This document shows, one piece after another, positions 6,112-51,710 of a DNA stretch of 64,000 bases. A program made the position numbers and the translations under genes. Within the stretch, counting starts at the first letter, position 1. Each line of letters opens with the position of its first letter. Under the pieces are notes generated by a model. It ran no database searches and was not told where the DNA came from. It saw only the letters and a program-made list of their open reading frames with translations. This DNA is from Crambe crambe (taxonomy: Eukaryota > Porifera > Demospongiae > Poecilosclerida > Crambeidae): assembly GCA_963924555.1 (NCBI GenBank), contig OZ004595.1, positions 372,001-436,000 on the forward strand. The letters are read 5' to 3'.

Positions 6112-6147
<36 letters not shown>

Positions 6148-8559: not shown

Positions 8560-11500
8560 TTACTGTTCTTCCGGGTACATCTCATTGATGAGGTGACCAT
8601 ACTTCTCTGCAACAATCTTGCGCTTCAGTTTCAGAGTGGGAGTCAACTCCCCACCCGACACAGAAAAGTCACGACACACTATCCGAAATTTCTGCAGTTG
8701 AAAGAAGCAAAGTATTTCTATAGGGAGAATCGAGTTGTGTTCCATTGAATGCAAGTTGTTGGAGGCCTTTCTGTACAAGCCTGACAATAGTCTTATTGAC
8801 CAATTCAATCAATGAATTCAATGAATGATGAACAGTAATCCTTCACATGATTCGTGTGGCTAGGACATCATAATATCATGTTTTCTAACATGAGAGTCAT
8901 ATGTTAACTTGCCTGTATCTTGGTAGCCCTGGATACACACTCTTTGTTGGCACAGGCCATGCCATCAGTGATGTACTTGGTAATGATGGGATCGGCAGCA
9001 GCCTCAGTGGTGGTTGTGGCTGTAGAACCAAGCTCTTGTAGGATGGAAAGAGCCAGTGCATCCAGCTGCTCAGTTGGTCGCAGTTCAGAATCCAACTGCA
9101 GGAAATTATAACAGTGTACATGATACATATAATCTGAGGGGAGAAGATGCATAGACACTAGGCAAGTATTAACAGAGTTGCCATCAGCAGGAACAATAAG
9201 TATGCATGTCATAGCAACGCTCTATCCTTCCCAAGTCATCACTGGCAACTATTCATACTTACAGTGGAACCTCCAAATAATGGACATACTTGGGACCCAG
9301 TCCATTGTAAACCTCTGTTTTGCATGGAGTAGATATTATACAAAAAGGTACTCTTGGATCGTCCTTTCTTGAGAGGTTGCTCCCTGAGTGTCCTTTATCA
9401 GAACATACCTCTGACTACAGAACCACACTTGAGCCCTTACCTCTGCTCTGAGGGTGACCAGCATGGTGAGATACTTCTGCCTGTCTCCGATCACCATGCA
9501 ATTGCTAAGCAGCTTCATCTGATCCAACATCCGCTCCTCAATTGGCACAGGGGCAACGTTCTCTCCGCCCCTGGTAATCAACAGCTCCTTGATGCGACCG
9601 GTAATAAAGAGATAACCTGAAAGAAGAAGAAACTATGCTTTGTGAAAATTAAGGAGAAGTCAGAGAACATACGTACCATCCCTGTCAACCCTGCCAATGT
9701 CCCCAGAATGGAGCCAGCCGTCCTCATCGATAGCTTCCTTTGTCTTTCGCTCTTCATTGAGGTAACCCATGAAGACGTGACGTCCCCGGAAACAGATCTC
9801 TCCATCTCCATTGGCATTGGGGTTCTCTATCTTCATCTCTGCACCAGCCATAACTTTACCAGTTGACCCTGTCTTATAGTTCCCTGCAAAACACGAGCAA
9901 GAACAGGATAAAAAAAGATCAAGAGATGTCATTTCAGAGGTAATCACCAATGAGAGAGAGAGTCTGAGGGCCAGTTGACTCAGACATGCCGTATAACTCA
10001 TAGATGGGAAAATCAAACTCCAGGAAGAAATCCAAGACTGATCTGGCAATGGGAGCAGCTGCTGTTCCCTGCATGGAGAAGAGATAAATTTTTCATGTAA
10101 AAAAGTGGAACGATTATTGTTACTTACAGCAACTTTGCAGCGATCTAGACCCATTTTTTCTCTCAAACCTTTGAAGACGATGCTGAAAAGAGATGATTTT
10201 GGTTGCAATTGTGGTGGTGATATAAGAAAAAACACACATACTTGTTGGCCAGCCAGTAGCCCCAGGCCACAGGTCTCCCACTCTGCCTATTCAGACTGGT
10301 TTGTCGTCCTATCCCCTAAAGGAAAGGCATATGATGAGAGAACTTAATGGACCATTGGATCCTGGTCTCCTGAGGCCACTTGGTCCTTGGTCCACTAGAC
10401 CAAAAGATTGTATAAAAAAGAGGAAAGGACTTACCCTTGCTTTTGTCATGATGGTTTCCTTGATGCCAGACACTTCTCTTAGTGTCCCATCAATCTTGTC
10501 CTTAAACTTTTCCCACACTCGTGGGACACCGACAAATACTGTCGGACGGACTTCCTGATTTACAAAGAGGATGTCATGATCATGTGACAGACATGTGACT
10601 ATCACCTAACCTTCAGAGTCTCTATTAGAGAGCCCTTGAGAGCATCAGGTTGAGCAAAGTGGATCGTATGTCCAGAATGTAGGGGAGCGTGTATATCCAG
10701 CATCTGAGCTGCCACATGACTTAGCGGCAAGTAACTGATCATGTGATCCTCCTGTAATTACATCTTCAGTAAATAATTAAGTATTTATTAAGGGGCTGGT
10801 AATTATAGGGACTGGTAATTATAGGGGCTCACGTGCTACTATCAGAAAAAAATTAGAGTGTTAAGATTTAACATTCATCGAATTCACTCAGTGAATCTTA
10901 TAAGTCATCATTAGTAGCTGCAGCCCCTCCCACTATCCAACCAATCCCTCCCATGACGTATGTACACCTCACATACCGCTCCTAGGCCATAGAGCAAAGA
11001 GCAAACGGCAGCTGTCCACGTGAAATTATCGTGACTTATCATCACCCCTTTAGGGTTACCAGTGGTCCCTGAAGTATAAATGAGTGCTGCACAGTTCCCG
11101 GGCTTCTGGCGCTCTATTCTCCACTGCACTTCATAATCTGGAACGTCCTATTAAGGTCAAGAAGTGTATATTTAGTAACAGTCATTGATGCTATATTTAA
11201 ATCTCTTGGGGAAGAAAGTGCATCTATTGTTACACCTAACCATCAAACAATGAGGGAAGATAGTGGAAGTATCAACACTACTCCAATCTAACCAACACTG
11301 CCAGCTGAAGGTCAAGGTGACTTGGACTAGGTTGGTATATGCCTTAAACCCATTATACTGTGCCCTGTACCTTACCAACTAAGTACATAGGGTAAAGGGA
11401 GTTGGTAAGGGCACAGTATATGGGAGTTCATGGAAAATAGGTAAGTCACCTTAACCTTTTGAATAGCTGGTTCCTGCAGTGTTGGAGTAAGTACCAACCT

Positions 11501-19871: not shown

Positions 19872-22800
19872 TTAATGGTCATTGTCTGAAGAGGACTCCT
19901 CATCTGATGACGACGATGATGATTCGGATATCCTGGACTTCTTTCTCCGCACAGCAAGAGAAGGAGGGCGTGACCCCGATGAACTGACAGACCTCCTCGA
20001 GCTTGGGATTTTATCTTCCTCCTCACTGCCAGTGCTGCTTCCACTGTCCGAAGACTCATAGTCCTCCTCATTGGATTCCAGAATGGGTTCACTTCGAATG
20101 CCTGCAGGCGAGGTGGCCTGGGGGGAGAGGGCAAAATCAGCTGATCCAACAGATTGAATCGATAGTTGACGAACAGGGGGAGGGGGTACAAGTCGTACTG
20201 GGGCTGGGGGTCGTGTGAACAGGGGCTGTGAAGTGGATTGTCCAAGAGGTGACTGGAGTTCTGTTTGTGTGGATGGAGGAAGTGTGGTTCTGGTTGGTAT
20301 GTGAAGAGGAGGGAGGACAACTGGAGCCCCATGAGGGGTCCCAGACGAGAGAGGAGATGGCACTCTCTGTTTGGGTCCAAGCGAAGTTTGACGAGGTAGG
20401 GTGCCAGGGGCACTGGGTGGAGCTTGTATGGGTGTTTGCGATTGGTCTGGAGCTACGGAGAACCGTTTTGTCAGGGACCCAAGAGTTGTTGGACTCTTAA
20501 CAGGAACACTGAGAGATCTTGTACGAGGGGGGAATGGGTTTCGTTCTGGACTTAGCTTGTTCTTGTTCATGAAGCTCTTCCAGTCAGCTGGTGTCGTAGC
20601 AACAGGAGAAGTAGGTGAAGTTGGACCAAGAGGAGCTCTCTGTGGTGTCTCACTGATTGGAGAGAGAGCCAATGTAAAGTTGGCAGCTGTGTTCTGACGG
20701 CTGTATAAAACTTCAGTTCTCCTCTTCTTCTCACTGAGTCTACTACACTCCTTCTGATGTCTCTCTACCCAGTGCTTGGTTTGGCACTCCTGACCACAAT
20801 ACCCCTGGGAGGAGCAGTTGGAACACTCAAACTGAGCTGCATTCCCACACACACAAAAGTGCTTCTTTGTCTGGAGGTTATCTGCAGTAACTTCTCGGAT
20901 GAAAATTGGTTTGCTTCCAAACACAATGCTGACAAACTGCTGTTGTTCGGTTGTGGGTTCTATGTCACACAGCTGCCTGGTCAAGAAGTAAAATGGCTTA
21001 TTTTTGAGGTTAGGGAAGCTTTCAATGATTTCAAATCTGAGCTCACGTAGCCGTATCGAAGGAAGTATGTTCATCTTCCCTAATCGAGTGCGTTTCCCTT
21101 CCTCCAAGCAGATGATGTCCATGGGGATCTTAGACTCAGCTGGAGTCAATGGACCAGCTCGTACTAACTCAGGGTCTGATTTATCTTCATTCATGGCAGA
21201 CTCGTCTGGTGCCACTTTCATCTTCTTCTTTTTCTTCCTCCAGTAAATGTAGACGATCACTATGACTACAATAACCACCACAACTATCACCAAAAATATG
21301 ATGATGACAGCTGCTATGGGGCCAGCTGGACTTGGAGCAACCGGCTCAGTGGAAACGGGACTTGTGGTTGCTCTGGTCGTGGGTGTAGTTGGCATGGTAG
21401 TGATGGTAGTGGGAGTGGTTTCTGGAATTGTAGTTGGAGGAGGGTCGGTGATGACAGGAGGTGGGAGGAGTCCAATGGCAAAATCACTGAGGTGGTTAAA
21501 CTCGCAGGAATAATACAGGGTGGATTTGATCTCGACTCTTGAAGGAGCCGTTGTGTTGTCTAGCAACCAATCATAGTTTCCATAGCCACTAGCTCCACCC
21601 ACTTCTCTGTACAGACATAATGGTATACTCTTGTTGCTGGGCAATGGTCGTGTCACTGGAATCAAGACTTGAATAGAGCTGTTCAGATTCTGAATGTTGA
21701 GATACAAATTTTGGAATGGAATCGAGATTGATATCGATACGATATCAGAAAACAGTTCTATTCCAAGTGGATTGGAACCGCGAATTTCATTCATGATTTT
21801 CTGTTGAACACTGTCACTAAGCTGTAGTGTTTGTCCGACCCCTGGACTTTGAGTCAGCCGAGCAAGATCTAATGGGAAGGTGACACCTGTTACACAAGCT
21901 TCGGAGCATGCCACACCTCCTTCTGGACAAGCTTGTGACTGGTAAATATCAATCACTGAGGAACGGAAATCAACAAGGTGGTTTGAGATGTTGAAAGGTC
22001 CCAGAGGTGGGGCAGAGATGACATACACATCAATGAGTGATGAGTTAAGAAGAGAGGGTTCTTCGCCAGTAGAACTCTGCTGACACAGCACATTTGTTAC
22101 ACTCTCCACTCCCCTGAGGAACATTTCCGCTACACCAGAGTCCGTGGTGACTCCACTCTCCACCAGCTGTATCCAAGGTGATAGCACAACGCTTGCATCC
22201 ATGATGGAGAGAAATTCCTTTTCCGGAGAAACATAGCCACTCTGCAGAAACAAGGGCTCGCCTGAGTCCTGCATTGGAATGGAAAGAAATGATGACATAA
22301 TTGCAGTCTCATTCTTGAACCAGTTGGCTATTTCCAGCGATGTCATGCTGATGGACATCTGGGAAGTGATGTCTAAACCTTCTGGACTTGAAGTGATCAG
22401 GGAGAGAATGGAAGAAGCTAGAATATAGTGAGTTGGAGATGGTGGGAGATGGTTGTTAAATATACTCAGAAAGACTTGTAAACTTTGTTCTTTTGTGGAC
22501 TGAGAAATAGAAGAAGAAGCATTTGCATTGATTTCATGGAGGTAAGTCACCAGTCTAGAAAGAGCGTTATTCCAATTTCTGGTAGCAACAAGGTCATTCT
22601 GCAGTGTGCTGATGTAGTTGGCATAGAAACCATTGGACATAGAAAGGTTGGGAAGAACAGTGATTTCAGTGGTGACATCAGAATACCCTCCCGTACGATC
22701 AAATACACGAGCAAACACTCCATAAGTGTGATCACTCCCTCTGTCTCCACTTGGGAAGACACTACAGAAAATAGGTGAGGTCTGGACACCCGACATCCAC

Positions 22801-25800
22801 TGTATGGACTCAGGAGGAACAGTGCTCCCCACTCCAACAGATGCAGAACTGTTACTCCTCAAAAGTCCAAACTGATAAAGGAAAGGAGAATCAGATCTGG
22901 AATCCAGAGCTCCAGAAACTCTCAGTTCAAATTCTGTTTCCAGGGCTACTCCAGAGGTTGGTTCTGAGGTGAGCTGAGCAGAGCTAGGTGGGGGATTTGG
23001 AACCAGTGTGCGTTCTGCATAACTGGTCCCGGCACTATTGGTTGCTGTCAGCCTGAAGGTGTATGCAAGTCTTGGTTCCAAAACATGTGGACTGAGAATG
23101 AGACTGACTCTATTGACAATGTTGGATGACACGGCAGCTGCAAGGGGGATGGTGGTGGTGGAAAGGCCCAAAGTAGGTGGCAGATTGAAGGGTGCATAGC
23201 TTGTCTGACTCTTAACCACTCTGGAGTCTGAAAGGTTGACAAACCCTTGCCCTGGAAGGAGATGTAGATATAAATGGTTAATGTGAAGGGAAATGGGTGT
23301 GTCATAATGGGTGTGGCACGAGTGTCATTATAATAGTTGGGAATCTCTTGTAGGTAAAGTTTTACAAAGTCCGGTATTTTTAAAACTCACCTTCCAGCTG
23401 CACTGACTCCCATTGGACGTTCTGTATTGGAGCACTGGAGTACACAAATCCAAATAATGAAATCTCTTGGGACAAAGAGAGATCCGAAAAATGGCTGCTC
23501 AGTTCCACCTTTGGTAGGGATGAGTTTTCAACCCTCACAATGACAGTGTCCTCGGACATTAAACTCCCCTGTTCCATTCTGAGTCTGAACATGTATGATC
23601 TCCCGAAGGTCAGAATGGAACTTGGGAATGTGATAAAATCGGAATTTGGGAGTTTGATTGGTACTGGAATGAGTGATGATACACTCTGGTTGTAGCAGGC
23701 GTCCAAGGAACCCACTACCGAGCAGATCCATGTGAAAGTAGGAGGAGCAAGCCGAGAGCTGTAAGTCGAGTTGCGAGCATCGAAAACAAGATTGCTTGTA
23801 ATCGAAACAGTTCTGTTACCACCATGAATACGAGCTCTAAGTCGAGATGGTAGTGTTTGAACTTGCAGAGACGTGTTCATGCTTTCCGACGACCTTCCCG
23901 GAGAGGTGACAGAGAGATGTAGTGTATAGCTGGCATTTTCCATCAAGATGTCTGCTGGAATGGAGATCAGATGAGAACTGGTTTTAACAGTTGAGAGGTC
24001 CACTCTTGTGGTGACGTTACGCCTCTTATCGGTAATACGTACCAATCCCCATTCAAACTGGAGAGGAGCGTCCTCACTGCAATCCGGGCGCGTGATGAGG
24101 CTTTGAACCACTAAGTCTTCATCGGCATCAAGAATACGATTGGTGGATCCTAAAATGGAAACTTGCAGCTTTGGAATTGAATCTTTCAGCAGATGTATGG
24201 TTTCAGCCCGGCTTCGGAGACCAATGGAATTAGTCACAAATAATTGAACATAGTAGCTGACATTCGGAAGGAAAAGACTCGAATTCAATGATATCTCGCT
24301 CGAATTTGCATCCCGGCTGTTGAGGTACTGTACAATATCTGAGAAATACTGAATTGTGCTGTCTTGGACTAGTATGGACCAGTTATACTCAAAGCCACCA
24401 TATCCTGGGTACTGAGAATGGAGCCCTGAGAATGAGACTCGTCCACAGGCTGGAATGGAACTGGGACCATTGATGATGGCGACTGGTTGAATTGAATCTG
24501 GACTTACTGATACAGTAGTGTTGGACACGGAAAAGGAATAGACAGTGTTCCTAGTCAAGATGGCACCATCCCTGAAGGTGATGGGGGAGTTGATCTTTAC
24601 ATTGGCACTAGCAGGTAGAGTAATCGTCACACTTCTTTGTCTGTTGTCACTCCACGAACAAATGGCTTGGAATCCACCAATCAAATCAAAAGTTCTCTCA
24701 TCAAAGATACCAGCACAAGAAGGTTGAAAAGAAGTGAAGTTTGTTCTAACTGCCCTATCAAACCTGATCACAAGACTGGACAGGTCGTCTGAGAAGTCGA
24801 TGTTGGTAACATTCGGTGCGCTGAAGCGATAAGTGAAGATGAAATCTGTTGATTCTGATTGGACTTGTCCTGACCGTTGTCCATCGAGGGATAACCTCAC
24901 TGTGACTCGGCAAGAGGTAGCAGCTGGAGGGAGCACACACCTCACTTCGGAACTGCTGACATAGATGGAAGGAACACTTATGTACTCACTGGGAGTCCTC
25001 GGAGAAGGAGGGCTGGTACAGGTGTGACTGTCATAGATCAGGCAAGCAGAGGAGGATGCGTTTATGAAGCCTTCTCCAACAAAGCTGATGACAGGCTGTG
25101 AATTCAGCTCCCACTCCATGGGGGACAGCGAGTTGAGGGTGATCAGAGAGTAGTCGTCATAAACGTATCGTACTGGGTTGGAGAATGGACCATTACTGAC
25201 GCTAACTTGCAGATCGAATGCTCCAGGTGAGATTGAAGTTTGGGACGTGCAAGTGATGGTTCCCTGGTCCACTGGGATAGCAGGTACGTGGAATTGCCGG
25301 TTACCCGATGTCAAACGACACGTGATACGAATGCTGGACTGATTGAGGAAACGAGTGGGAGCTCCACAATTGGGAGAGTTGGGGTTAAAATCAAAACCAA
25401 GGAGAGCAGTGTCGTTCAAGAAGAACCCAGCTCCCCAGACTGTGATCATCGTGCCCCCCGATATGGGGCCTCCTTGAGGGGTGAGGGCGTCCAATAGGAA
25501 ACAGCCGCAGTTGTTGCCACCACACTCACCACACCTATCGATAGTCTTCCCACTGGCCACTTCACCATCACAGCCGACACAAGTTGAGTTGTCCCCATTA
25601 CATACTCCACACGAGTCCAGCGTCGAATCTTCCGTGACATTAGTGCTGCCCCCATAGCACTCTCCGCAGCTGTCAAGCATGGCAGCACCAAAACACTGCC
25701 CCGAGCAATCACGGTTCTCATGCACGGACCCATTCTGACTTGGCAGCTGGCACACTCCACAAGAGTCAGTACGAAAAGAGCCATTGCATACCCCTGTGCA

Positions 25801-28800
25801 GTCAAGGTTCTGGTTGAAGAGAGGGGAACTGGTGCCCGGTCCCGTGCAGTACCCACATGTGTCCATCACAGCGTTACCACGACACATTCCATTGCAGTCG
25901 AGATCGGTATTGAAGTCATGTGATGTGCGTCCACCTGAGCACACACCACAGCTGTCTATCAGAGCGGTACCAAAGCAGTCACCATTGCAATCAACGAAAG
26001 ACGAGTTTGCATTTTCTGAATTTGTACTTGGAACTGAAATCTGGCTTAAACACGCTCCACATTGTTGTAGTTCAGTACCAGAGAATGGAATCAGGTCACA
26101 TCCTATGCACGAGGACGGACCACCGCACACATCACAGGGGTCATGCCCCCTATTACTCCCCCTTACCCCATCACAGCCCACACAAGAGGCACCATCTCCA
26201 CCACACACACAGCACTGGTCCTGAGCCACACCTGAGTTGACCATTCCATCACATCCGTAACGAGCAGCCTGTAAAGTCACAAGATCACTGCTGAATAATC
26301 CGATTGGTTGGTTAATGGACTGCAATGTATCGACCAAAGGATCAGTGTTTATATTCATGGTGGAAGCTTCACTAGGAGGAGACAAGTCAGAGCTGAATGG
26401 TCCAACTGTATTGTCCCATACTTTCACAGAAATGGTTGGGGGTGATTCATCAACCCAGAAGTAATCCGGATGAGGCAAGAATCGAATTCTGTCATTCCCA
26501 TGGAGAAGAAGAGCACTGGATATGGTGAGTTGAGATGGAAAGTTGACCCAGATGTTGATATTCAGATCATATTCCAATGACCTGTTTTCACTAACTGTCC
26601 AGTTGCCACGGTGATACTGCCACACCCCTCTTGGTGTTGTTGAGACGCCCACCACTGCCAGACCAAGGAAATCACCTTCTCCATCTGAAGCAAATCTGCC
26701 CACCAGTGAACTGACATGATCGCCGTGGTAACGAGAGGCAGTAGCACCAGGACAACCAGCTCCAGGTCCAAATGATGTATCTGGAAGGGGAAAATAATCA
26801 ACTACCATTCAATCTTAACTTCTTCTCTTACTCACCTTGAGAGATATTCAAAACATTGAAGTTTAGGAGTGATAGTGGTCCTCTTCTCTGACTGATGAGT
26901 TGACTAACAGTTTCAAAGTTCAAGACATCATTCTGAACTGAGAAGCTAACTTCAGTCCTGTAATGAAACAATGAAAAAATTAAATAGTTTGTCCCCCCCA
27001 CACACACACACACACACACACTACCTACCTTCTTTCAGTAGCTGGAGAAAAGCGAAGCAAGGAGACAGAGTGCTGTAGAATTATCTGCAAGTAATTTGCA
27101 AATATCAACTCCTCTTGCCTAAGAGAAGATGGATTCCTATCCACGAGCAGACTGAAGACACGTTCGTACCAGTGAATGATCCGGTAAGGAATGGGCGATA
27201 AGTGGACAAGTCTTTCTAAGACTCGAGGTCGATCAGGCAGACACTCTATGGCAAGTTGTGCTCTTTCCCAACTGTTCAAGTTGTACATTGAGAGCTGGCT
27301 AGAGGAAAGCTGATTGCTTTGAGGAGCATTAGAAATGATGAAACCGCTTGGCAGCTGAGTGGCTACTGTACTATTCCAGAATCCATCCCAAGGAGCCAGT
27401 AAGATGGATACTACCCCACAGGAGTCTGGGTGAGGGAGGAAGCGAAGTCTGGCTGTGGTATTGAGCAGAATCATATCAGTGGAAGAGATGATGGAGTCAA
27501 GGCTTAGGAAGAGTTTAGGGTCATCACTGAGAGCTACTTGCCACAGTCCTGAGTTGTTCGTTGTCATGGAATCCAGTGATACTGCCACTCCTGGGAGCTG
27601 GCCAGATTGATGTGCTAATTGGCGCTCCTTGCGTGTTGGGTTCACTCTCCTAATGTTGTCATAGTAAAGACTAGTAACTTCAGCTGGAAGCAACTGCTCA
27701 TACACGGAGGACATTCCCTGTGGGAAACCTTCAATTCTGTCTTCGGAGAGAACACTGAAGTTAGGAATCTCCACAGAAAGAATCAAATCAAATAAAGCAT
27801 TCCCCAAATTCTGAGCAAATACCACATCTTCTTGTATTCTCGTGAACTGCAGAGTAGCCATTGGATTGAATGATGGTGGCAAGATTGCTGGGGAAATGAT
27901 GACCGTCAAAAGAGTTGCTGCTTGACTGAAGGCCCCACTGGGTGTGTACGGAAGAGTCGACATGAAGCTTGGACTGTGTCTCTGCACAAGATCCTGACGA
28001 GGGCTGAGGAAACCATCTGTGTTCCCATCCCACAACCTTGCCCTCAGCCACACAGCACCATCGAGTTCAATAGATTTTCGCACAAACCTCAATCTTGCTG
28101 TGTTAGGAAGCAGCAAAGCATTACTTTCCGATAACAAACTCCTGTTTATTCTCATCCAATTTTCATAAGGAGTTAGAGCAAATTGCCACTCTCCATAACT
28201 GATGGTCACATCAGACGCTCCCACAATAGCAACACTTACTTCTTCTCCTTGTGAGTCTACAGCTGGATTTGTGCCGTTGTTGCCTAGTAGCACTGAGATC
28301 ACATGACCTTCACTGGAGTATATTGCACTTTCATTAAAGGCTGTCATGGTTTTGAGATAGACAAGCTCTGAGGGAACACTAGGGGCAATATTGGGCAGTT
28401 CACATCTCGTGCCAAGTTGGAGGCAAGAGTTCAAAGTTGAGCAGAACGCCTCATCTGGACTGCAGCACTGTACGAGATTGGTTACACAGTCACCACTGTT
28501 AGGGCAAGGAAGAAGCTGTCCAGGGCAACGCTGACAGAGATAAGGGCTACTTCTATTCATGCACCGGTCAAGCTCTTCACAGTAAACAGAGTCACTGTTA
28601 CAAAGTCGGCCATTCTGAGGTAAGGTGTTTGTTACAGCACAATACCGTGTCGTGTCATTCCTTTGAACCAGACTTTGACCAATGAGACAAGTGACATTGG
28701 TGTTGTCACATGACTCAGAGAGAGTGGTCATGTAACATAAATTTGTGGTAGGACACACAGACATTCCTCCCTCCAAACATGTACCAGCACAGGCCAAGTT

Positions 28801-31800
28801 CACTGGTAGGCAGGTCTCCATGGCAATGCAAGGGACGAGTGTTGAGTTCAAGCACCTGTAGTCCACACAAACTCGACGAGCAGAAGAAAGATTCTGCATA
28901 GTCAACAAGAGAGGGAGAGAGAGAAAATGAATTCCATTTGTTCATTTAGAGTGAAGTTAACTTACATATGGACTGATGCAAAATGGATTGCACTCAACGA
29001 AAGGGAATATATCAAATGTGCAATTCACCTCTCTGATGCTTCTGCAGAAACCATCATCTGAAAGATAAACAAAACAGTAAACAAACAAACAAAATAGTAA
29101 ACGAACAAACAAAATAGTAAACAATATGACAAAAGCCATGAGATCAACCCTTACCTTCACAAAAGTCTCCATCATTTACTGGTGGGAGATTCACTGTGAC
29201 AGGTGTTGTGAAGGAGCCATCAAAAGCCGTCACATTGACCTGATAGCCGCTGGTGTTCTCATCGATTTGTCTGTTGGTCACTATGACGCCAGTGATTGGA
29301 TCAATCCTAAACAGACCACTGCTGTTGTCAGCAGTAATGGAATACATCATCACATCTCCCACTAGATCAGCATCCGTGGCAATGACCCGTATCACTGGCT
29401 TCCCCGCAGTCAATAGCCTCAGGGCACCAAACCTGACTTCTGGTTGCTGAAACACGGGTGGATTATCGTTCAGATCAAGCACAGTGACAAAGACAGGGAT
29501 GCTGTTGGACCTCCGAATGCGATAACCTGAATCTATGGCTGACACCAGGAGCTGGATCACGCCAGCCATTTCCCTGTCAATGGAGGCGATGGTTGACACC
29601 ACACCTGTGACAGGGTCGATGGAGAAAGAGGGCTGCTCTTGGACATAATAGTTTGTGGTGATTTGGTAAGTGATGTTATCTGAATCAATATCCGTGGCAA
29701 CTACTTGAATTATAGATGTTCCCATGGTGACATTCTCAAACACAGAGACTCGGTAAGCTCTCAGTTCGAACTGTGGGTCATGATTGTTGACATCCAGGAC
29801 AGTGACATTGAGAGTGGTCATGGCTGTTTGAGGAGGTGTACCACTGTCTTCTGCTTGAACTGTCAACACATGAAATGCTTCGACATCAAAATCCAACATG
29901 GCAGCCAAAGTTACAAGTCCTTCCGAGGGATCAATGGTGAATAGTCCATTGACGTTCCCTGAGGCTATAGAGTATATGATAGCACCTGTGCTGGTATCGG
30001 AGGCTGATACTTGCAGGATGGATGCTCCAATAGCGAGGGTTTCTGGGATAGTGACATTATAGCCTTCGGGCTGTGAAAATACAGGGGGGCCCAAATTATG
30101 GGGGGATATTTCCACAAAAATTGAAGTTGAGGCTGCCAGGGGCTGGGGGTTCCCTCTGTCTGCTACTGATGCTGAAACAATGTATGAGGCTGTATCTAGG
30201 TAGTCGTATGTGGTGTTGGTTGAGATCACGCCACTTGATTGGTTGATTGAAAAGGTCAAGGGTTCACTGAGGTGAGTGATGGCAAACACCAGTTCAGAGT
30301 TGGTACCGGAATCTGAATCAGATGCCTGTAGAGTCAAAATATTGGTTCCAATTGGAGTTGATTCTGGAATGGAGATTCTGTAGAACATTTGACTGAACTG
30401 AGGACTGTTATCATTTTCATCGATGAGAGAGACAATGACTCGAGCACTGCTTGACAACGCTGGCGTTGCCATGTTATTTGTAGCAACCACTGTCAGAATA
30501 TGGGAGGAGTTTGCTTCATAATCCAATAAACCTGATGTCGATAAGATCCCAGTTGAGGGGTCAAGGTTAAAATTACTTTCCTGATCGGAGAGGGAGATTA
30601 TGAAATCAGAGTCATTGCCTGGTTGGTCGATATCAAAGGCATGAAGAAGAGTGAGAGTGGTCCAAAGGGGAATAGACTCTGAAACAGTCACTCTGTACTC
30701 CTCACTATCAAACACAGGAGGGTTATCATTAGCATCCAGTACACTGATCGTCATGACGACATAAATAGGGGGAGTGTTCATCCCCCCAGGGCTTACGATG
30801 TTGAGGACGTGTACTGGAGCTGATTCATAGTCAAGGTTGCTAGCCACCACCACGTTGCCATCGGAATCGATGGTAAAGAGACCCTGTGTGTTGTTGAAAA
30901 TGGCAGCCTCCTGTGGCACAACTTGCCCGATAACAGTACCAATTTCAGCCATTTCACTCACTTCAAAGTGATACGATGAAGAGCTAAAGAGAGGTGTGGT
31001 CATGGTGACCATGAAGGGCACAACTGTGATATAAATGTCCACACTCGTGGAGAACGAGCCATCAGTTACCTCTAGAGAGAGCATAAACATTCCAGGGGTC
31101 AAAGGTCGCAATACATACACCGTTCCTTCCAGAGGGTCCACTTCAAAGTAAAACATCCCATCCACAAGACGGTAAGTGAGACTACTGCTCTGTGAAGACA
31201 CATCTCTGTCTGTGGCTACAAAACGTCCAATCAATGAGCCCACAACTGCATTCTGGGAGATGTTGATGTAGTAGGTCGAGAGGGGAAAGGAAGGAGCATG
31301 CTCATCTTGATCGCTCACGGTAACCCTTATGGTTGCTGTATCAACCAGAGGATAAGGTGATCCATTGTCAGATACAAGCATAGAGAGTGAATGGGATGGA
31401 ACTCTTTCGGCATCGAGTCGACCAGCAATGACCAATTCTCCAGATTCGGAACCAATTTCAAACAACCCATCTATATCGCCACTAAGTATGCTGTAACTTA
31501 GATTGGCGTTGTTTCCAATATCAAGATCTGAAGCTGTGAACTGATAGATACTGGTTCCAATAGGAGTCAATTCTGGAACTGATACTGAATATACACTGGA
31601 ACTGAACATGGGACTGTGATCGTTCACATCGAGAATAGAGACCTCAAGTTCTGCAGTGGCTGTGAATTGTGGAGTGCCTTGATCAACTGCTCGTAAACCA
31701 AGTCTATAGAAAGACACTATCTCCCTATCAAGATAATCTGACACTGAAATCTTTCCAAAAACTTCATCTACTGAAAAGACTGAACGCAAATTGCCAAAAA

Positions 31801-34800
31801 GGATGGAGTAACGGAGCTCACCATTGCTGGTGGAGTCCACATCTGTTGCTGGGATCTGGAAGATTTCCGTTCCAAGGATGGCGTTTTCTGGAATGGATAC
31901 CGAATAAGTACTGGAATTGAACAGTGGTGGGTTATCGTTAAGATCCACCACCTCGATGAAAACCTCTGAAGAGCTGGATAAGGACCTGCTCCCATCATCT
32001 TGAGCAGAAACAAACAAACGATAGCTCTGAGCTGACTCGTAATCCAATGTCTTAGTTAGAGATAGCACTCCATCTCTCTCCCCTACAGCAAATGTGCCAC
32101 CAAAGGTGTCTGATAAAGAGAAGGTGATATTGGCATTATGATTAATATCCCTATCTGAGGCACCAATATAGATCAGAGTCGATCCAGTGGGCGTGTCTTC
32201 TGGTATGACAGCTGTATAGTTGGATGAATTCAGGACTGGAATGTTATCATTGTTATCCAGAACAGAGACTATCACCAGGGCGACCCCAGTCAGGCTGGGG
32301 TCACCAAGGTCACCAGCTGCTATGCTTATTTCCAAGAAATCTTGTGTCTCTCGGTCCAATTCCTGCTCTAAAGAGATGTCTCCCGTCGTTCTGTTGATTG
32401 AGAAGAAAGAGGAGTCATTTCCAGGAAGTATTGAGTAAAAGAAAGAGCCATTTTCAGCAAAGTCATAGTCAGCTGCCTCTACTCTTAGAATAATGCTGGA
32501 AGTGGAAGTATTCTCAAACAAGAAGATAGTGTAAGTTGAATTGGAGAAAGATGGAACGACATCATTAACATCCAAGATTGTTACATTCACAATCACTTCT
32601 GCACTTCTCTCAACCAGCAGACCTCCATCAGTTGCCACAGCAACGATGGAGTGGAATGCTTGCTCTTCCCTATCAAACTCAGCAGATGTGAAAATCTCAC
32701 CGGTGATGGAGTCAATCTCAAAAAGATTTGTTCCATTTAGGTAGTAGGTAACATTCTGCACGTCAATATCATTGGCTTGAATTTGTCCAACGAGAGTTGA
32801 GATTGGTAAGTTTTCTGTGAGGTCAAAGGTATAGATGCTCTGTTCAAATATGGGTGAGTTGTCATTGCTGTCTAAGAGAATGACAGTGAGTGTGGTAGTG
32901 GCATTCAGTGGAGGAGAACCACTGTCAGTCACTGTCACTTCCAAGACGTGTTGTGGCTCATTCTCACGATCCAGTAGTCCGGCAACAGAGACCACACCTA
33001 CTCCACCTGCACCAGTGCTGATATTGAACAGACTTGTATTGAAGCCTCCAGTGATTTCAAAATCCAGAGCTGAATTCTGATTGGTCACATCTGCATCAAA
33101 GGCCGTGATTTCTATGACTACACTCCCCATGGGATTGGACTCCAAATAAGGAATGATGTAATCCACCTGCCCGAACGAGGGCGAGTTATCATTTGAGTCT
33201 CGCACAGTCACCCTCACCACTGTGTCTGACGCTTGGAATGGAAATGCTGCACCATTATCAGCACGGACTGTCACATTGTAAACTTCAGACACCTCAGCAT
33301 CAAGAGGAAGACGCAGAAAGAACTCGCCTGATGTTCTATTGATCTCAAAGCCAGCGTTGCTAGGAGACACTACTTGTATGGAGTAGAAGACTTGAGCATT
33401 GCTATTTAAATCTGGATCAAATGTAACTATGCTCAGTAGTGAGAGGTTGGATGCAGTGTTTTCAGTAACTGAGACTGCATATGGAGAGTTGATGAACGAT
33501 GGAGGGAAGTCATTCTCATCGATCACTATCACTTCCAAGAGAGTCGTACCAGTTAGAGCTGGACTGCCTCCATCTCTAGCAAAGATGGTGATTGTGTACG
33601 ACTCAAACCGCTCCCTATCCAGTGGCTGTGTTGTCAATACAGTCCCCAACACAGGATCTATCTCAAAATGGAAGGCAGGTGAAGAAGAGTTGATGCTATA
33701 TGTGAGCTCTGCATTTGAGCCGATGTCAGCATCGCTTGCATTCAGTTGAACCACAACACTTCCCAGTGGAAGGTTTTCTCTGATGCTGGCAGTGTAGCGA
33801 GGTTCTGCAAATGTTGGAGGTGAGTCATTCTCATCCAGTATTGTAACCATGACAAGTGCTGAGCTGGTTAAACTCGGCGTGCCAGCATCAGTTGCCATGA
33901 CAGTGAGGTTGTAAAGGTCTTCACTTTCTCTATTGAAACTCGCAGAAAGAGCAAAAATTTCTCCACTGATCATGTTGATAGTGAACATACCAAGTCCTGA
34001 CAGTGAATACGTGATCTCAGCATTTGAAGAGAGGTCAAAGTCCACAGCATCTACTCTCCCAACCAGCTGCCCAGAAACAGAGTACTCTGAAATATTAACA
34101 AGGTAGACATCTTGACTGAAAGTTGGAGTCTCATCATTTTGATCGAGGACTTTGATGATGGCAAAGGTGGTGTTAGTAAGTTCCAGTAGCTCTCCAGAAT
34201 CAGTAGCTGTCACCTCCAACAGGTACACGCTCACATTCTCTCTATCCAGTGCTCGGAGAAGTGAAATCTCTCCACTTTGAGAATCATTGATGGCAAAGGG
34301 TATGTCTGATTCTTCTATTATGGAAGTATCATTGAGAAGTGTAATGCATCCTGTTTCGTTCACACTCCCATTCCTAGACACACAAGTTTCGGCAGCTGCC
34401 ACTACTTTGGTGATGGAGAAGTGAATTTCTGCGTTAGCACCAATGTCGGCATCAGTGGCTGAAACATTCAAGACTGAGGTCAGCGGAGGAAGGTTTTCAT
34501 GGATGGAACCTTGGAAGAATGGGATGGTGAACTGAGGGGCGTTGTCATTCGCATCGCTGATACCAATAGAGATGGGGACACTGCTCATCAAAGAGGGGCT
34601 CCCCTCATCGGCAACACTGACTGTAATGTCATAGGTGGAGGTGCGTTCTCTATCAAGGTTGGACGTGTTGGAGAGAGTTAAGATACCAGTACCCTCGTCG
34701 ATAACAAAATTCATTTTGCTTTCATTTGACATGAATTCAAGTCTGAAAACGAGTTCCTGATTGGAACCGGAATCAGCATCTGAGGCATTTACATTCAGTA

Positions 34801-37800
34801 CGACATCACCAGGAACGGAGTCTTCAGGAATAGATGTGACATAGAATGGTTCGGAGAAAATAGGAGGATTGTCGTTTCTGTCAAGGATAGTGATGGTGAC
34901 GTTGGTAGTGTTGACAAGCCTCTCAGCTGCTGGTCCAGCATCAGTTGCCATGACAACCAGGTCATACTCCTCTATGACCTCATAATCAATAACTCCAGCG
35001 ACAGTGATGTTCCCACTAGCAGCTTCGATGGCAAATGTGTCATTGTCACCACCGATGATGGAGTAGAGCACGGTACTATTCTCCCCAAAGTCCAAATCCA
35101 TTGAAGATATCTGTAATACGATGGTTCCAATAGGCTCATTCTCGAACACCTGCCCTGCAAAGTCACTTTGAGTGAACTCTGGAGGGAATTCGTTGATGTC
35201 CAGGACATTGATGAGTAATTGTGTCCTTCCGGTGAGTGGAGTGTCTCCCATGTCCATGGCTAGAACAGTGATGTTGTACAGGGCGATGTCTTCTCTGTCG
35301 ATGGCCACTTCCAGTGTCACTTCTCCTGTGCTATCATTCAGAAAGAATGTCCCAGAGGAATCGTGGAACTCGAAAGGTGAATCTTGGAAAAAGTATCGTA
35401 TTTCGGAATTCCTGTTCAGGTCAGTGTCATTGGCTCGGACGGTCACCACTACAGTTCCCTCAGGGGCATCTTCACTGAGTCCAATGGAGTAGGGATTCTC
35501 AACAAATGTGGGGATCTTGTCGTTGATATCATGAATGACAACATGGAGGTAAGCATTTGCGAACAATCCTCCACCATCTGTAGCATTCAGCGTGAGGTTG
35601 TACTCAGGGTACACCTCACGGTCGAGACTTGAAGCAACTGACACTGCACCCGTGTCACGATCAATGCCAAAACTCCCCGAAGGGTCGCCAGCTGTGATGG
35701 AGTAAGTGACACGCCCATTGCTGTTGCGGTCAATGATGAGGTTGCCATTGCTGTCCACGATGCTCTCATCCTGGTCAGCATCTGTAGCGTTCACTTGTAC
35801 CACGATGGAGTTGACGGTTGTGTTCTCCACAATGTTGATGGTGTATATCTCGCGATTCCAGATGGGTGAGTTATCATTGAGATCGATGATGAGTATCTCC
35901 ACAGGCACAGTGACGGATCGGGCTGGGTTACCACCATCAGATGCTATCACATTTAGTGTGTAGAATTGAGTGCGTTCGTAGTCTAGTGGAGCATTTGTAA
36001 AGATTTGACCAGTATAGGTATCAATGCTGAAATCCAGATATCTGTGGTTACCATGAACACCAAATGTCACTTCACCATGGGAACCATAGTCACGGTCTGT
36101 TGCACTGACGTTGATTATATTCATTCCAGCAGGGAAATCCTCTCGGAGACGAATGGTATAAAGAACTTCTCCAAAGACAGGATCAAAAGTGTTTCCATTG
36201 AGCACTTCAATCTCCAACCTTGCAGTTGAGGAGTATCTAGGTGTTGCTAAGGAATTAGTTGCTTGGATTGTCAGGTTGAATCCACGATTTCCATCTTCAT
36301 AGCTCAGAGTCCTAGTGAGTGACAGTTCTCCTGTTGCCGAGTTGATTCTGAAGTAAGATCTTGCGAGTGGATCTGATTGGCTGATGTCATACGTTATCAC
36401 ATTAGCAGGAGCATCCCCATCTCTATCAGCAGCTATGGCAGTGAAGAACACCTCCCCAACAGCTAGTGTTTCTGGAACCCCCACAAAGGAGGAGTTGGAG
36501 ATGAAGAGAGGAGTGTGCTCATTTTCATCGGTGAGTCTGATGTTGAGGATGGCGTAAGCAGAGGTAATACTTGCTGTGTTCTCAATGCTTATAGTGAGCT
36601 GGTAGAGAGACTGAGTCTCAAAGTCTATGGCTGAAGAATTTGCGACTGTGAGGGTTCCCGTTGAGGAGATATCAAAGATGGCACTGTTCACTCTATATAT
36701 GTCCACATTTTGAGCACGTCCAGAGAACTCCATGACAATATGACCATTCTGAGCAGCTTCAGAGAGAGTGACGTCGTAGTTTCTAGAGTTGAAGTGAGGA
36801 AGAGAGGCAGCTCCTCCCTGAACAAATACAGTCACATTTGCCATATCACTGAACATTGATTCTGAGGCTTGTAGTGTCAAGATAAATGCCCCTCCACGGT
36901 GTGGCCGTAGGGACGCTCTCGTTCTGATTGTACCATCTCCTCCAACTTCAAAGAGATTGAGTGAATTCCCCGAAAGAAAGGACAACATGAACCCAGCATT
37001 GCTTCCCTGGTCTGCATCGTCCACGGCAACCCTTGTGACTATGCTCCCTGCAGCTACCTCTGAATCGATAGTGACTGAGTACTCTGGGCTTGCAAACCGT
37101 GGTGGACTGTCATTAGAGTCCATCACTTCTATGAGCACATTAGTATAGTTACTCAATCTCATGTCTCCAAAGTCAGTTGCCACCACAGGCAACATATAGA
37201 GGCGTTGGGAGCTTTCGTAGTCCAGAGTTTCGAGTAGAGTCAAATCCCCTGTGGTTGAGTTGAGGTCAAAGAGAGAACTAGGTTCCAGCAGTCTGTATTC
37301 AATGGTTCCATTAGCTCCCTCGTCTCCATCCTCTGCTCGGAAGGTGTGCAGAACAGACCCCACAGTGACGTTCTCAAAGATGGGGACTCGGATGAGCAAG
37401 TTGAAGGTGGGATGCATGTCGTTCAGATCAGTGATTGTCACCAGGAGTTGGACGGAGGTCGTAAGAGGGTAAAGGGCTAATGAGTTATTGGCTATGATGG
37501 TCAGGTTATAAAGAGAAGACTCCTCCCTATTCAGGTAGGCGTTGGTGTAAACCACACCCGTCTCATTGTTGATACCAAACTTTTCACTTCCTTGGTTCTC
37601 CAGGAGAGAAAATACAATGTTAGTATTCTCTCCGTTAGTGTCACCATCTGATGCTAATACTCGGACAACAGTGGTTCCAGAGGCAAGGTTTTCACGTATG
37701 GATGCCAAGTATTCTGATTGGTTGAAAACTGGAGGGAAATCATTGGAATCGGTCACGGCAATCTCAACGCGAGTGGAGGCATTTCTACTGGGTGTACCTA

Positions 37801-40800
37801 AATCTGTGACAATGACTTCAAATGAGTAGAAAGTCACTGACTCGAAGTCCAAGATACTGGCAACATAAATGATACCTGATGTCATGTTCACCCCAAAAGC
37901 AGTCAACACTGCTGAGTCAGCAACATGATAGCGTAAATCAGCATTGGAACCGGAATCTGCATCAGTTGCACGAAGAGTGAGAAAAGGTGTTCCAATTTCA
38001 GTTCTTTCCGGAATGGAAGTGGAATAGAGAACTTGATCGAATACAGGGTCAAAATCGTTAGCATCAAGGACAGTTATGGTCAGTGTTGCATCTGTGTGCA
38101 TGGCAACGGGAGATCCATGATCAGTAGCCCTTATCAAGAGATCATATGAAGACCTTCTCTCTCTATTCAGAGTTCCCCTTGCAAAGAAGACCTCACCAGT
38201 CTCGTAGTTCAGAGTGAATTTCTGATTAGAGAAGTCCATGAGGACTGAGTATGTGATGTCAGAGTTGTTACCAGGACTATCGGCATCATTTGACTGGACA
38301 CTTCCCACCAACACTGTCTCATTTGTGATTACGGAATTCTCTTTGATGGTGAGGTTGAGCGATTCGGGTAGGAAGAGAGGAGGGTTATCATTGACATCCA
38401 AGATGGTGATCATAAGCTCAACAGTGCTTGAAAGTGAAGTGTTTGAAGCTCCTAAGTCAGACGCTACAATTGTGACGTTGAACTCACCTCCTTCTTCCCA
38501 ATCTACTTCTCCAAACACGGTCACCACACCTGTTACCGGGTCAACACTGAAGGCATCGCTACGGTTACCCTGTAGTGAGTACCGGATGAGGTTATTTGGA
38601 GGCTCAGCGTCTTCATCAGAAGCAAGAGCTGCTGCAACAAAAGTACCGATGTCAGCATTTTCTATAACTGTTGCATTATATGAAGTCTCGTTGAATAGTG
38701 GTGGGTGTTCATTGAAGTCTTCAACGGTTACCATGACAGTGGCTGACCCTGTTAGGGGATGAGGAACTAATCCATTGTCTACAGCAATAACTGTAAGCTC
38801 GACCATACTCTCCATTTCTCTGTCAAATCTGTCATCAGTGAAGAGTTCTCCAGTGGTTGAGTTGATGGTGAATCTGTCAGAGTTTGAACTATTAGGAGCG
38901 AAGTAGTACTGTATTTCTGCATTGGTTCCAATATCTGAATCGCTGGCATTGAGTCGGAAGAAAGACGTACCTATAGGATCCGATTCTGAGAATGAAGGTG
39001 TGTACAAAGATTGGGAAAAAGTTGGAACCATATCATTGGAATCTAAGATCTGAACGTAAATGGTTCCAAAACCAAATAACTGTGGAATTCCTTGGTCTAC
39101 CACCATTACTGTCAGGTTGTAAGAATCCTGAATGGTTTTATTCAGGACAGCTGCAGTGAACAAGCCACCGGATGTTCTGTTTATGGAGAACATCTGATGC
39201 CCTTCTCCATCAAAGAGAGTGTATCTCAGATCAGCATTTGAGCCAATATCCTCATCAAGAGCTTGGAATTCATTCAAAACCATTTGCCCTGGGGGCAAGA
39301 ACTCATGCACTGTCGTGGTGATATTATCTTCAAAGTAGGGGGAGTTATCATTCTTGTCCATGATCATCACAGTGATGTTAGTCACTCGAGACAAACCCTC
39401 AAAGTCAACCGTCTCTATGGCTACTGTGATGCCACTGGGCTGCAGTTCTCTGTCAAACACCCTCAGGCTGCGGAGCAGGCCTGTGGTTTCGTTGAGGGAG
39501 AAGGACTCGTTGACAGAGTAAGGATCGTAGACTTGTGTGAGGGAGAAGGTGAACTCACCTCCCTGATCAAGGTCTGGGTCAATGGTGTAATCTCGTAGGG
39601 TCACCACATCCACTTCAGGGGGTGTGTTTTCGGGAACGAACAGTTGGAAACCTTGAGGAAAGATGATTGAAGGAGCTTCATCGTTTGTCCCTATCAGACA
39701 AACCGTTACATTGACACGATCGGTGAATGGTTCTGGGAAGCCACCATCGTAAGCTTCCACAACAAAGAAAATGGAGTCACGAAAGTCAAAATCCAGAGTG
39801 GAGTTAACAGAAATGGCACCCGTGGTATCGTTGACTGCAAAAGACCCAGCCTTGTCAAACTCAGTGACTATTCTGTACCGCACCTCTCCAATGGCTCCGA
39901 TGTCATGATCACTTGCACTCACGTTCAGAACCACCTCATTAAGAGGCGTGGTTTCAATGATGGTGCTGTTGTAAAATGGAGCGGCAAAGACTGGTGGGTT
40001 CTCGTTAACGTTGTGGAGGATGATTGTGAGGGGAACGTCATCGCTGAACCTCAAGGGTCCATTATCAAGAGCTCTAATGGTGTATGTGAAACGAGATTGA
40101 TTTTCAAAACTCAATCGACGATTTCTGAATACGGTGCCAGTCACAGCATCAATCCTAAATGCCGTTGGATACGTGGGGTCTGGGACTTCGATGCGATATG
40201 TTATCTGTCCATTTGGTCCACTGTCCCTATCTGTGGCTGTGAGTTGAATCAGAGGTTGAAGTCGAGTCACGTTGTCGAGGATGCTTACTTGGTAAGACTC
40301 TTGACTGAATATGGGGTTATTATCATTTATATCGTTGACGAGTATAGTCACGTTAACTTCGGATGAAAGCTGATTGGAGAGGTTGAGGGGATTATCAACT
40401 GCCCCTACGATTAGGTCGTATGAACTGACATTTTCACGATCCAGCAACACATTTGTGAATAGATCACCAGTTGAGGGGTCAATCATGAAATTTCCATCTC
40501 CCCCCTGAACAACATTGTACGTGACTCTCCCATTATCACCCTCGTCCAAATCCATAGCAATGATTCGAGCAACACTGCTCCCAACTCTAGAGTTCTCACT
40601 GATATGTGCCACATACTCTGTCTGCATGAACTGTGGAGTGTAATCGTTCACATCCAATAACCTCACGACAACGTAAATGGCGTCCTGGAGGGAAGAGGGC
40701 ACTCCTTGGTCCCGCGCAACAACTGTCAAATTTAACACACCCTGTACCTCTCGATCCAGGGGGGCGGAGACTACAATTCGTCCAGTAGTTCTATCGATAC

Positions 40801-41779
40801 TAAAACTTCCTGTCAAATCGCCACTGGCTATGGAGAACTGGATGTCAGCATTAGCTCCAGTGTCCAGATCAGTGGCATTGATTTCCTCCAAAATCACATA
40901 GCCAGAGGGTGTATCTTCAGATATGGTGACATCCACACCCCGAGGGGACATGATTTGGGGGGCATTGTTGTTGGAATCCAGGATGGTGATTTCAACAGTT
41001 GTGATATCACTCTGCCCACCTCCATCGGTTGCCATGACAGTGAGGTTGTAGAATGCCACTTGATCAATATCTATACGAACACCAGCTGAAATTGATAAGC
41101 TTCCATTATCAGGATTGATTTGAAAGTGGCTCAAGTTATTTCCAGCTGTTATATTGTAAATGATACGACCGTTATCAACCGTGTACATACCCACAACATC
41201 ACGTATGTTATTCCCCCTGTCCACAACCACCTCTTCAAAGATCACCTGATCCGGATCAACTGCTGTGACGTTGAGAAAACCAATTCCACTTGGAAACTGC
41301 TCAAAGAGAGAGACTTGGAAAATATCTCTTGTGAACCGAGGAATGTTATCGTTGATGTCTTCGATGAAGACAGTGACTTGCGCATCCCGTGAAGCTCCTC
41401 CCACCGATGACATGAAAGTAACGGGAAAGGAGTACTGCGTTTGTACGTTCTCAACATCCCAGTCAAATATCACCGAGCTCCTGATCACAGCATTGTTCAC
41501 TCCAGAAGAGTCGAGTCTGGTGTACTCAATACTAAAAAACCGACCATCTCCACTTGTGGGGATGGAAAAGGACCCCAATACAGCTTGTCCAAATGAGTTG
41601 AATGCACCCACATGCACTGTGATGACTGTGGTATTAACTGGCTGCTCTTCCTGGAACCTTTGAAAATATGAGGATGGTACGAATTGGATAAATTGACTCT
41701 GGACCGTGTGTAGAGAGCAGGTCACTAAGAGCAGCAGCAGCAGTAGGGAGTGACTTATCTCCATAGCTGTGATGTCCAC
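19872..41779 (-). CDS. Giant cadherin-REJ-GPS single-pass receptor with cytoplasmic MYND finger
   Basis: Six exons (29155-41779, 28966-29057, 27029-28893, 26836-26957, 23391-26780, 19872-23251) join in phase with GT-AG borders into one frame of 7157 aa. Order: signal peptide (1-28); about 39 cadherin repeats (about 35-4200), counted from 38 linkers, most of LDxNDNxPxF type; a Cys-rich stretch (about 4209-4415); three repeats with a GxWxY...RLRFxP pattern (near 4470, 4690 and 4950); a run of DxCGxCxG / DCxGxCxG units (about 5075-5325), like the CGVCNGDNSTC seen in ADAMTS spacers; two IPT/TIG-like domains (about 5330-5560); an REJ-like region (about 5650-6500); a GPS-type site CEFNHLSDFA (near 6617); one membrane helix (6679-6702); then a 454-aa cytoplasmic tail with a MYND zinc finger (6830-6865) and a Pro/Ser-rich end. 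It is probably an adhesion receptor at the cell surface. REJ and GPS are known together in polycystin-1-like proteins. The single exon holding all cadherin repeats is unusual. Two adjacent genes are possible but unlikely, because every junction keeps phase. Confidence 0.88.
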
Positions 41780-50629: not shown

Positions 50630-51565
50630 TTAAACATTCTTCTCAAAATCATCTTTCTTGTCTACAGACAAGGAACGGATTCCTTCACTTAATCTTGCGA
50701 CATCATGCTGAGGTGGTGGTGATGCGTTATTGAAAGTAGCAGCAAGTTTCATAGCTCCTTTCTTCTTCTTCTTTGCTGACGAGGACAGATTGGGAGGTGG
50801 TGTGTCAAGGTTGTTAACAACTGTATCCAGGACATCCTGCTGAGCTTTGGGACTTTCTTTATCTTCAAATTCTTTGTGTCCTGAATCTCTGTTATGCAAC
50901 TGCATTTTTGGGCTTCCTTTATCTTCTTCATTTACAATTTTAGCTACAGCACCCACATTGGAACCAGATTCTCGACCCACATTGGAACCAACTTCTTGAT
51001 TAGTCTCACGAGCCAGCCTTGATTCTTGTGTGACTAATTCATCATGGCTTATACCTAGGTTGGAACCTGACTCTTGAGTAGCATCTGTGTTGGAACCAAG
51101 TTCTTTGGCAGCAACTACACCAGATTCACCAACATTGGAACCAGACTCTTGAACAGGAGCAATGGGTTGTGTGAGGGTCGTGTGATGCTTAGGAATGGTT
51201 GCACTTTCAGTTTGATTTTTAACGGGAGTAAATTCCACTCCTCCATCTAGGAAATCTCGACGCTTGAATAGGGTCTCTCCAGATGCCACACCCCCTTGAG
51301 CAGATGGTGGTGATACCGGAGGAGAGGATGAAATTCCTGGTACCTCTTGTTGTGCTGAAGATGGGGTAGAAATTTTCCAAAGGGGAGGGTTCTGACCTGG
51401 ATTGGAAATTTCTACATGTACCCCCTTCATTTTGTATAGGACCTGGTTCACAGCCTTCCTGTCCACACCGTGACCAATTTTCCTGGCAATATCCAAGGCT
51501 TTGAGGGGCACCAGAGAAGCTCGGAGAACTTGGAGAATGTTTTCTTGGAGAATGTTTTGCTCCAT
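50630..51565 (-). CDS. Z-alpha domain protein
   Basis: An intronless ORF. The first true ATG (51565) gives 311 aa; the frame stays open upstream but without an ATG. The N-terminus is a Z-alpha winged-helix domain (about residues 3-62). The Z-DNA/Z-RNA contact residues known from ADAR1 are present: Asn in KAVNQVLY, the Tyr of the same motif, and the beta-wing PPLW. The rest is low-complexity: Ser/Pro-rich, then several ESGSNVG-like repeats (about 135-215), then a basic KKKKK patch and an acidic C-end. No deaminase, kinase or dsRBD is seen, so it is neither an ADAR nor a PKZ. It lies head to head with the ADAR gene, 145 bp between starts. Function inferred: Z-form nucleic-acid binding, perhaps modulating ADAR or competing for its ligand. 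Confidence 0.82.
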   Translation of the reverse strand: MEQNILQENILQVLRASLVPLKALDIARKIGHGVDRKAVNQVLYKMKGVHVEISNPGQNPPLWKISTPSSAQQEVPGISSSPPVSPPSAQGGVASGETLFKRRDFLDGGVEFTPVKNQTESATIPKHHTTLTQPIAPVQESGSNVGESGVVAAKELGSNTDATQESGSNLGISHDELVTQESRLARETNQEVGSNVGRESGSNVGAVAKIVNEEDKGSPKMQLHNRDSGHKEFEDKESPKAQQDVLDTVVNNLDTPPPNLSSSAKKKKKGAMKLAATFNNASPPPQHDVARLSEGIRSLSVDKKDDFEKNV

Positions 51566-51710
51566 TTGTGCAGGTACCAGGTGTTTCTTGGGGGGGAGAA
51601 TACGGTAGCCAGATACGCGGTGCAATCCCAGGGAAATTCCCGAGCTGTTGGTCACGTGGCATGACTTAATTCAACTAGCTGTACAAGCAAGAATACAGCA
51701 CTAAGTAACT
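51566..51710. promoter_or_regulatory. Divergent promoter region of the two Z-alpha genes
   Basis: 145 bp between the start codons of the Z-alpha protein and ADAR. The arrangement implies a shared promoter. No TATA box seen; exact elements unknown. Confidence 0.5.

Follow-up and report, generated by a model that had tools for sequence, protein, structure and literature searches.

The window analysed here, a 64,000 nucleotide stretch of the Crambe crambe genome (contig OZ004595.1), carries a giant cadherin gene on its minus strand. Splicing of its six exons yields one frame of 7152 residues followed by a stop codon, and the features of the gene are collected in Table 1. All five introns have GT...AG borders and measure 97, 72, 71, 55 and 139 nt in order from exon 1 to exon 6; retention of any one of them introduces an in-frame stop. 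The junctions proposed in the initial annotation (29155/29057, 28966/28893, 27029/26957, 26836/26780 and 23391/23251) were found to be exact and to keep the frame. Its single open frame also held, but its count of 7157 codons did not, as this takes in open codons that precede the first ATG (41764). The assembly holding the gene comprises 143 Mb in 119 contigs. Judged from sequence, the six-exon giant cadherin gene is confirmed as real, and we infer that it is spliced in this manner in the animal.

Table 1. Features of the giant cadherin gene (window positions; aa, residues of the spliced product)
Feature	Position	Strand	Basis or remark
Exon 1: start codon, signal peptide, ~38 cadherin repeats	29155..41764	-	
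Signal peptide	41696-41764	-	by eye
Exon 2 (92 nt): part of Cys-rich unit I (aa 4202-4398, continuing into exon 3)	28966..29057	-	
Exon 3: remaining Cys-rich unit I, two W/LL..RLRF modules (motifs aa 4495, 4710)	27029..28893	-	
Exon 4 (122 nt)	26836..26957	-	joined to exon 5 in P0065
Exon 5: third W/LL..RIRF module (aa 4988), Cys-rich units II, TIG, REJ N-terminal half	23391..26780	-	
Cys-rich units II (aa 5073-5323)	26253-25501	-	
TIG, best stretch (from aa 5327)	25491-25159	-	Pfam
REJ N-terminal half	24084-23476	-	Pfam, exon 5
Exon 6: REJ C-terminal half, GAIN, stalk, helix, UBL, MYND, Ser/Pro-rich tail, stop	19872..23251	-	
REJ C-terminal half	23138-22575	-	Pfam, exon 6; whole REJ ~aa 5796-6252
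GAIN domain (modelled aa 6228-6632)	21435..22649	-	predicted model and PDB comparison
GPS core CEFNHLSDFA (aa 6609-6618)	21477..21506	-	predicted cut L6614/S6615
Thr/Pro-rich stalk, GPS to membrane (aa 6623-6668)	21327..21464	-	
Single membrane helix (~aa 6669-6697), then RKKKKK	21240..21326	-	hydropathy
Predicted ubiquitin-like domain, UBL (aa 6735-6814)	20889..21128	-	structure prediction
MYND finger, CxC first knuckle (aa 6826-6862)	20745..20855	-	Pfam
290-residue Ser/Pro-rich cytoplasmic tail	19875..20744	-	

Domain content and neighbouring open frames

In a Pfam scan at E<=1, which covered exons 1, 3, 4, 5 and 6 and left out the 31 codons of exon 2, the protein was assigned to the cadherin superfamily by 38 cadherin stretches (each at E<=1, 1848.5 bits in total). 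TIG was above its cut-off. The REJ profile was split at the exon 5/6 join, with positions 7-216 of 452 matched in exon 5 (77.6 bits) and positions 259-442 in exon 6 (66.0 bits) against a cut-off of 25, and zf-MYND scored 29.8 bits (cut-off 22.7). Pfam gave no match at E<=1 for the GPS profile PF01825 and no EGF, LamG or 7TM match in the Crambe protein, while NCBIfam gave nothing above cut-off and weak matches to the stalk-helix region alone. Strong hydropathy runs were restricted to one helix and the signal peptide, the next being a marginal 1.61 at aa 4554-4572; with a single strong run and no 7TM match, neither seven nor eleven membrane helices were found.

The initial annotation was right to read the gene as a single giant cadherin in which Cys-rich units and IPT and REJ domains lead to a GPS-type site, one membrane helix and a MYND finger. 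Of the domains it had named for a search, cadherin, TIG/IPT, REJ and zf-MYND were matched; GPS was not, and the GAIN fold comes from structure prediction. Its description lacks two predicted parts, a full GAIN domain around the GPS and a ubiquitin-like domain before the MYND finger.

The region from aa 4440 to 5060 (approximately 28323-26290 in the window) holds three W/LL..RxRF modules with no Pfam match above cut-off. This module has weak relatives in two proteins, P0142 and P0149, and inspection by eye adds P0144 of Clytia. Three Nematostella vectensis proteins named 'serine-rich adhesin for platelets' (P0161, P0165 and P0170) are 45% identical to the exon 3-5 region, the match covering 14% of the query.

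Beside the cadherin gene, an 897-aa open frame at 51705-54398 (+) combines two z-alpha stretches with a dsRNA-binding motif and an adenosine deaminase domain, as in an ADAR1-like RNA editor. Divergent from it is a 346-aa open frame at 50630-51670 (-), whose z-alpha match lies just above cut-off (23.6 vs 21 bits). A further open frame at 9660-10286 (-) has a sub-cut-off match to an AMP-binding enzyme family (25.9 vs 29.9 bits). Other giant cadherins lie elsewhere in the same genome, at C20:2214446, C19:4020642, C19:3826677 and C14:7237655, their open frames measuring 6539 to 9990 aa.

Relatives and support for one protein

The exon 6 product was compared with the database (7983 candidates scored, E<=0.01), and 53 relatives were obtained; according to a precomputed domain listing MYND is present in all 53 and REJ in 47 of them. 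P0002 is 98% identical to the exon 6 product and may come from the same or a very near species. In P0003 a second stretch duplicates the same finger letters, which looks like an artefact of assembly or prediction. The search with exons 3-5 gave 116 proteins, many matching the Cys-rich units alone; among them are eight further MYND-bearing relatives (P0124, P0133, P0137, P0151, P0154, P0166, P0173 and P0176). The structure alignments took in 49 of the 53 exon 6 relatives (all except P0003, P0025, P0026 and P0027) together with eight proteins from the exon 3-5 search.

The search for relatives in other sponges, which the initial annotation had proposed, was answered by a MYND-bearing glass-sponge protein, P0154 of Oopsacas minuta, labelled 'Protocadherin Fat 4-like'. 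It aligns from aa 5188 to 6976 at 25.6% identity, implying that the half of the protein from the REJ-GAIN region to MYND extends to hexactinellids. The database protein has 1698 residues, with MYND as its sole Pfam match and no cadherin seen. The single-pass cadherin receptor family is known by name in two sponge classes, Hexactinellida (here) and Demospongiae (the published report discussed below). At the DNA level, no relatives were confirmed in genome contigs (129 pattern stretches) or viral contigs (76). Within the Crambe genome itself, the UBL-MYND stretch was matched once over its full length, and five other matches cover the finger part alone. On the same contig, 176-aa open frames about 88 kb from the finger of the cadherin gene (C18:304395-304748, +) hold two matches to the MYND finger, at 39 and 49% identity.

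Database proteins reading through the exon joins were sought among 175 proteins, and such fused relatives back four of the five junctions. When the exon 2-3 module was searched against proteins of approximately 2.4-7.5 thousand residues, six matches were obtained. In three of these, P0055-P0057 (4154-4224 aa), one frame with no intron break holds both the cadherin repeats and the exon 2-3 module; their alignments start at aa 661 or 686, end at 4856 and show 39-40% identity. The others, P0058-P0060, have other cadherin-like domains and match weakly over 11-24% coverage, and were left unused. Exons 4 and 5 are spanned by P0065 (aa 4856 to 6028, 54% identity); three of the four spanners of this join (P0142, P0149 and P0081) matched weakly, within the W/RLRF-module region, and were left out. 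The exon 5/6 join had 13 spanners, of which 11 MYND-bearing proteins were kept and P0143 and P0147 were dropped for having no MYND. The REJ domain, divided by intron 5 here, is unbroken in one frame in P0028, P0029, P0030 and P0045.

The remaining join, exon 3/4, has canonical splice sites and both of its flanks are conserved right to these sites. No credible fused, orthologue-like relative was found for it among the 175 proteins, the spanners P0142 and P0149 (23-24% identity) being weak W/RLRF-module matches that were left out of the count. This speaks in favour of two adjacent genes, a cadherin and a REJ-MYND protein, having been mis-joined here, which we consider extremely improbable. Against it, P0055-P0057 combine cadherins with the exon 2-3 module and stop within seven residues of the exon 3 donor (P0055 and P0056 at the end of exon 3, P0057 seven residues beyond), the P0065 alignment starts at the exon 4 acceptor, and introns of 55-139 nt leave scant room for a second promoter. 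The mis-joining of two genes was rejected on the strength of the fused relatives P0055-P0057, P0065 and the 11 exon 5/6 proteins.

The first repeats were subjected to a PDB sequence search and matched CELSR1, protocadherins, Fat 4 and protocadherin-16 (DCHS1); these matches allow no decision on Dachsous. In 2013 a protein of Amphimedon queenslandica, XP_003386184.1, was described with EC, VSP, IPT, REJ and MYND and tentatively filed as dachsous, on the basis of BLASTP with Trichoplax dachsous (PMC3620549). The same order is present in Crambe if VSP is taken as the Cys-rich units, and the positions fit: VSP-IPT-REJ spans aa 5114-6215 in Amphimedon, compared with Cys-rich units II at 5073-5323, TIG from 5327 and REJ at approximately 5796-6252 here. 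The cadherin-Cys-IPT-REJ-MYND string is therefore not new, and the view in the initial annotation that no such cadherin was known is only partly right. As to the GAIN/GPS and ubiquitin-like parts predicted here, the words 'GPS', 'ubiquitin' and 'proteolysis site' are absent from the main text of PMC3620549. Orthology to XP_003386184.1 is inferred from domain order and positions. According to that paper, residues 4900-6300 are related to two EC-rich M. brevicollis proteins and partly to one B. floridae protein. No further papers on this architecture were recognised in the portion of the literature that is openly accessible.

The BLASTP result favours the protein being the sponge Dachsous, with a role in Hippo signalling and planar polarity. 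In the published tree, however, XP_003386184.1 clusters convincingly with neither fat nor dachsous, and VSP, IPT, REJ and MYND are restricted to A. queenslandica among the dachsous proteins shown (PMC3620549). We regard this identity as highly doubtful, and the finding casts doubt on the 'sponge Dachsous' label in work on the origins of Hippo signalling and planar polarity.

The predicted GAIN domain and the cytoplasmic tail

Structure prediction and PDB comparison place a GAIN A+B fold ahead of the membrane. GAIN domains often cleave themselves. The H-x-[ST] triad of its GPS, HLS in Crambe, is kept in 52 of the 54 aligned rows, the S/T being lost in P0016 and P0047. It is also present in all eight further MYND-bearing relatives (as HFT in the Oopsacas protein). 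Cys 6572 and Cys 6609 occur in all 54 rows, and an aromatic residue two positions after the first GPS Cys in 51. PMC13062082 names as determinants of GAIN cleavage the H-x-S/T triad and a Phe that packs against the His; Tyr or Trp at the Phe position likewise raised cleavage in an ADGRB3 variant. The predicted fold, the triad, the aromatic residue and the eight further relatives argue for self-cleavage. The lack of a Pfam GPS match argues against it, as do the Gly-Cys motif reported in GPS-active receptors, which is found in none of the 54 rows, and the precedent of ADGRB2, which has HLS and a GAIN fold and hardly cleaves (PMC13062082). PMC9672506 gives 2-4 Cys in the GPS motif, two being present here, and GPS cleavage in two of four PC1-like products, the two exceptions having no HL[T/S]; among its references is a 2002 paper whose title makes the REJ domain a requirement for the cleavage of PC1.

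On the cytoplasmic side, conservation within the exon 6 product is highest in the ubiquitin-like domain, with a predicted beta-grasp fold, and in the MYND finger. Median identity over 52 rows was 81% for MYND, 69% for UBL, 41.5% for GAIN and 35% for the remainder of the tail. All eight zinc ligand positions of MYND, with CxC as the first pair, are invariant in 54 of 54 rows. Compared with PDB sequences, the finger matches ZMYND10 best, with ZMYND8, DEAF1 and CBFA2T1 among its further matches. DEAF1 and CBFA2T1 are MYND proteins with chromatin roles, as is ZMYND8 according to its PDB title. The link to chromatin and transcription suggested in the initial annotation would be an analogy from such other MYND proteins.

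Proposed mode of action and known systems

Based on the frame, the domain order and its conservation, together with the predicted folds, we propose with moderate confidence that the protein is a self-cleaving single-pass cadherin adhesion receptor with a UBL-MYND docking tail. The approximately 38 cadherin repeats and the REJ/IPT stalk would make contact with a partner in the matrix or on an adjacent cell. The membrane-proximal GAIN domain would cut itself at HL|S (L6614|S6615), and the outer chain, ending at residue 6614, would stay non-covalently on the 538-residue membrane chain, whose UBL-MYND platform and Ser/Pro-rich tail may recruit cytosolic partners. A pull on the cadherin part might then strain or strip the outer chain and alter the activity of the tail. 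A point against this proposal is that there is no seven-helix part for a tethered agonist.

It is also possible, though rather unlikely in our estimate, that the protein is an uncleaved adhesion scaffold in which GAIN acts as a structural spacer and cytosolic partners are anchored constitutively by the UBL-MYND tail. The missing Gly-Cys motif, the two rows in which the S/T is gone and the failure of an HLS-bearing GAIN to cleave would fit such a scaffold; the retention of the triad in nearly all rows despite the low median identity of GAIN, and in all eight further relatives, would not. We think it quite improbable that the outer chain is shed and an intramembrane protease frees the UBL-MYND tail to act on transcription in the nucleus. 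The short ectodomain stub after the GPS, the single helix and the basic runs of the membrane chain (RKKKKK, KKRR and RRKK) are compatible with this, as are the chromatin proteins among the PDB matches and the PC1 tail fragments reported to enter the nucleus (PMC9672506). A membrane-adjacent basic run is ordinary in single-pass proteins, however, and ZMYND10 ranks above those chromatin proteins. A role as nuclear messenger is possible only by analogy with polycystin-1 tails and chromatin MYND proteins. A probably sponge-wide Notch- or polycystin-like mechanoreceptor, in which a pull on the cadherins would part the self-cleaved GAIN and the freed UBL-MYND would signal to transcription, is a similarly distant prospect.

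If real, such a mechanoreceptor would extend GAIN receptors beyond the polycystin-1 and adhesion GPCR families, the only two in which a 2022 review places the domain (PMC9672506). The Crambe protein departs from this rule: it has no 7TM, and its REJ-GAIN unit stands between a cadherin ectodomain and a single helix that leads into the conserved UBL-MYND tail. A one-helix relative among GAIN receptors is not unheard of, as such a variant of Drosophila Cirl is mentioned in PMC13197933. Should cleavage of the proposed receptor hold, GAIN mechanics would become testable free of G-protein coupling, and in an animal that probably branched early.

In polycystin-1, REJ is followed by GAIN/GPS. The Crambe protein shares this order with the polycystin-1 family (PKD1, PKDREJ and sea urchin REJ), but has one helix where these have 11, cadherins and UBL-MYND replacing the multi-helix part. 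The CELSR/Flamingo adhesion GPCRs differ in their seven helices; the Crambe protein gave no EGF, LamG or 7TM match, and REJ, TIG and MYND are extra here. With Fat/Dachsous the protein shares dozens of cadherin repeats and a single helix, but it has no LamG/EGF match and adds a REJ-GAIN stalk and a UBL-MYND tail. The PKD/REJ-like protein P0144 of Clytia hemisphaerica and the REJ-GPS-SEA protein P0147 resemble it in their Cys-rich units (by eye), in REJ and in a single hydropathy run exceeding 3 close to the C-terminus, while neither has the cadherin linker motif or the MYND pattern. P0147 has TIG and REJ, together with sub-cut-off GPS (21.0 vs 22.5 bits) and SEA (26.1 vs 26.4) matches. The notion in the initial annotation that REJ with GPS belongs to many-helix proteins needs widening, since P0147 combines REJ and a sub-cut-off GPS with one strong hydropathy run.
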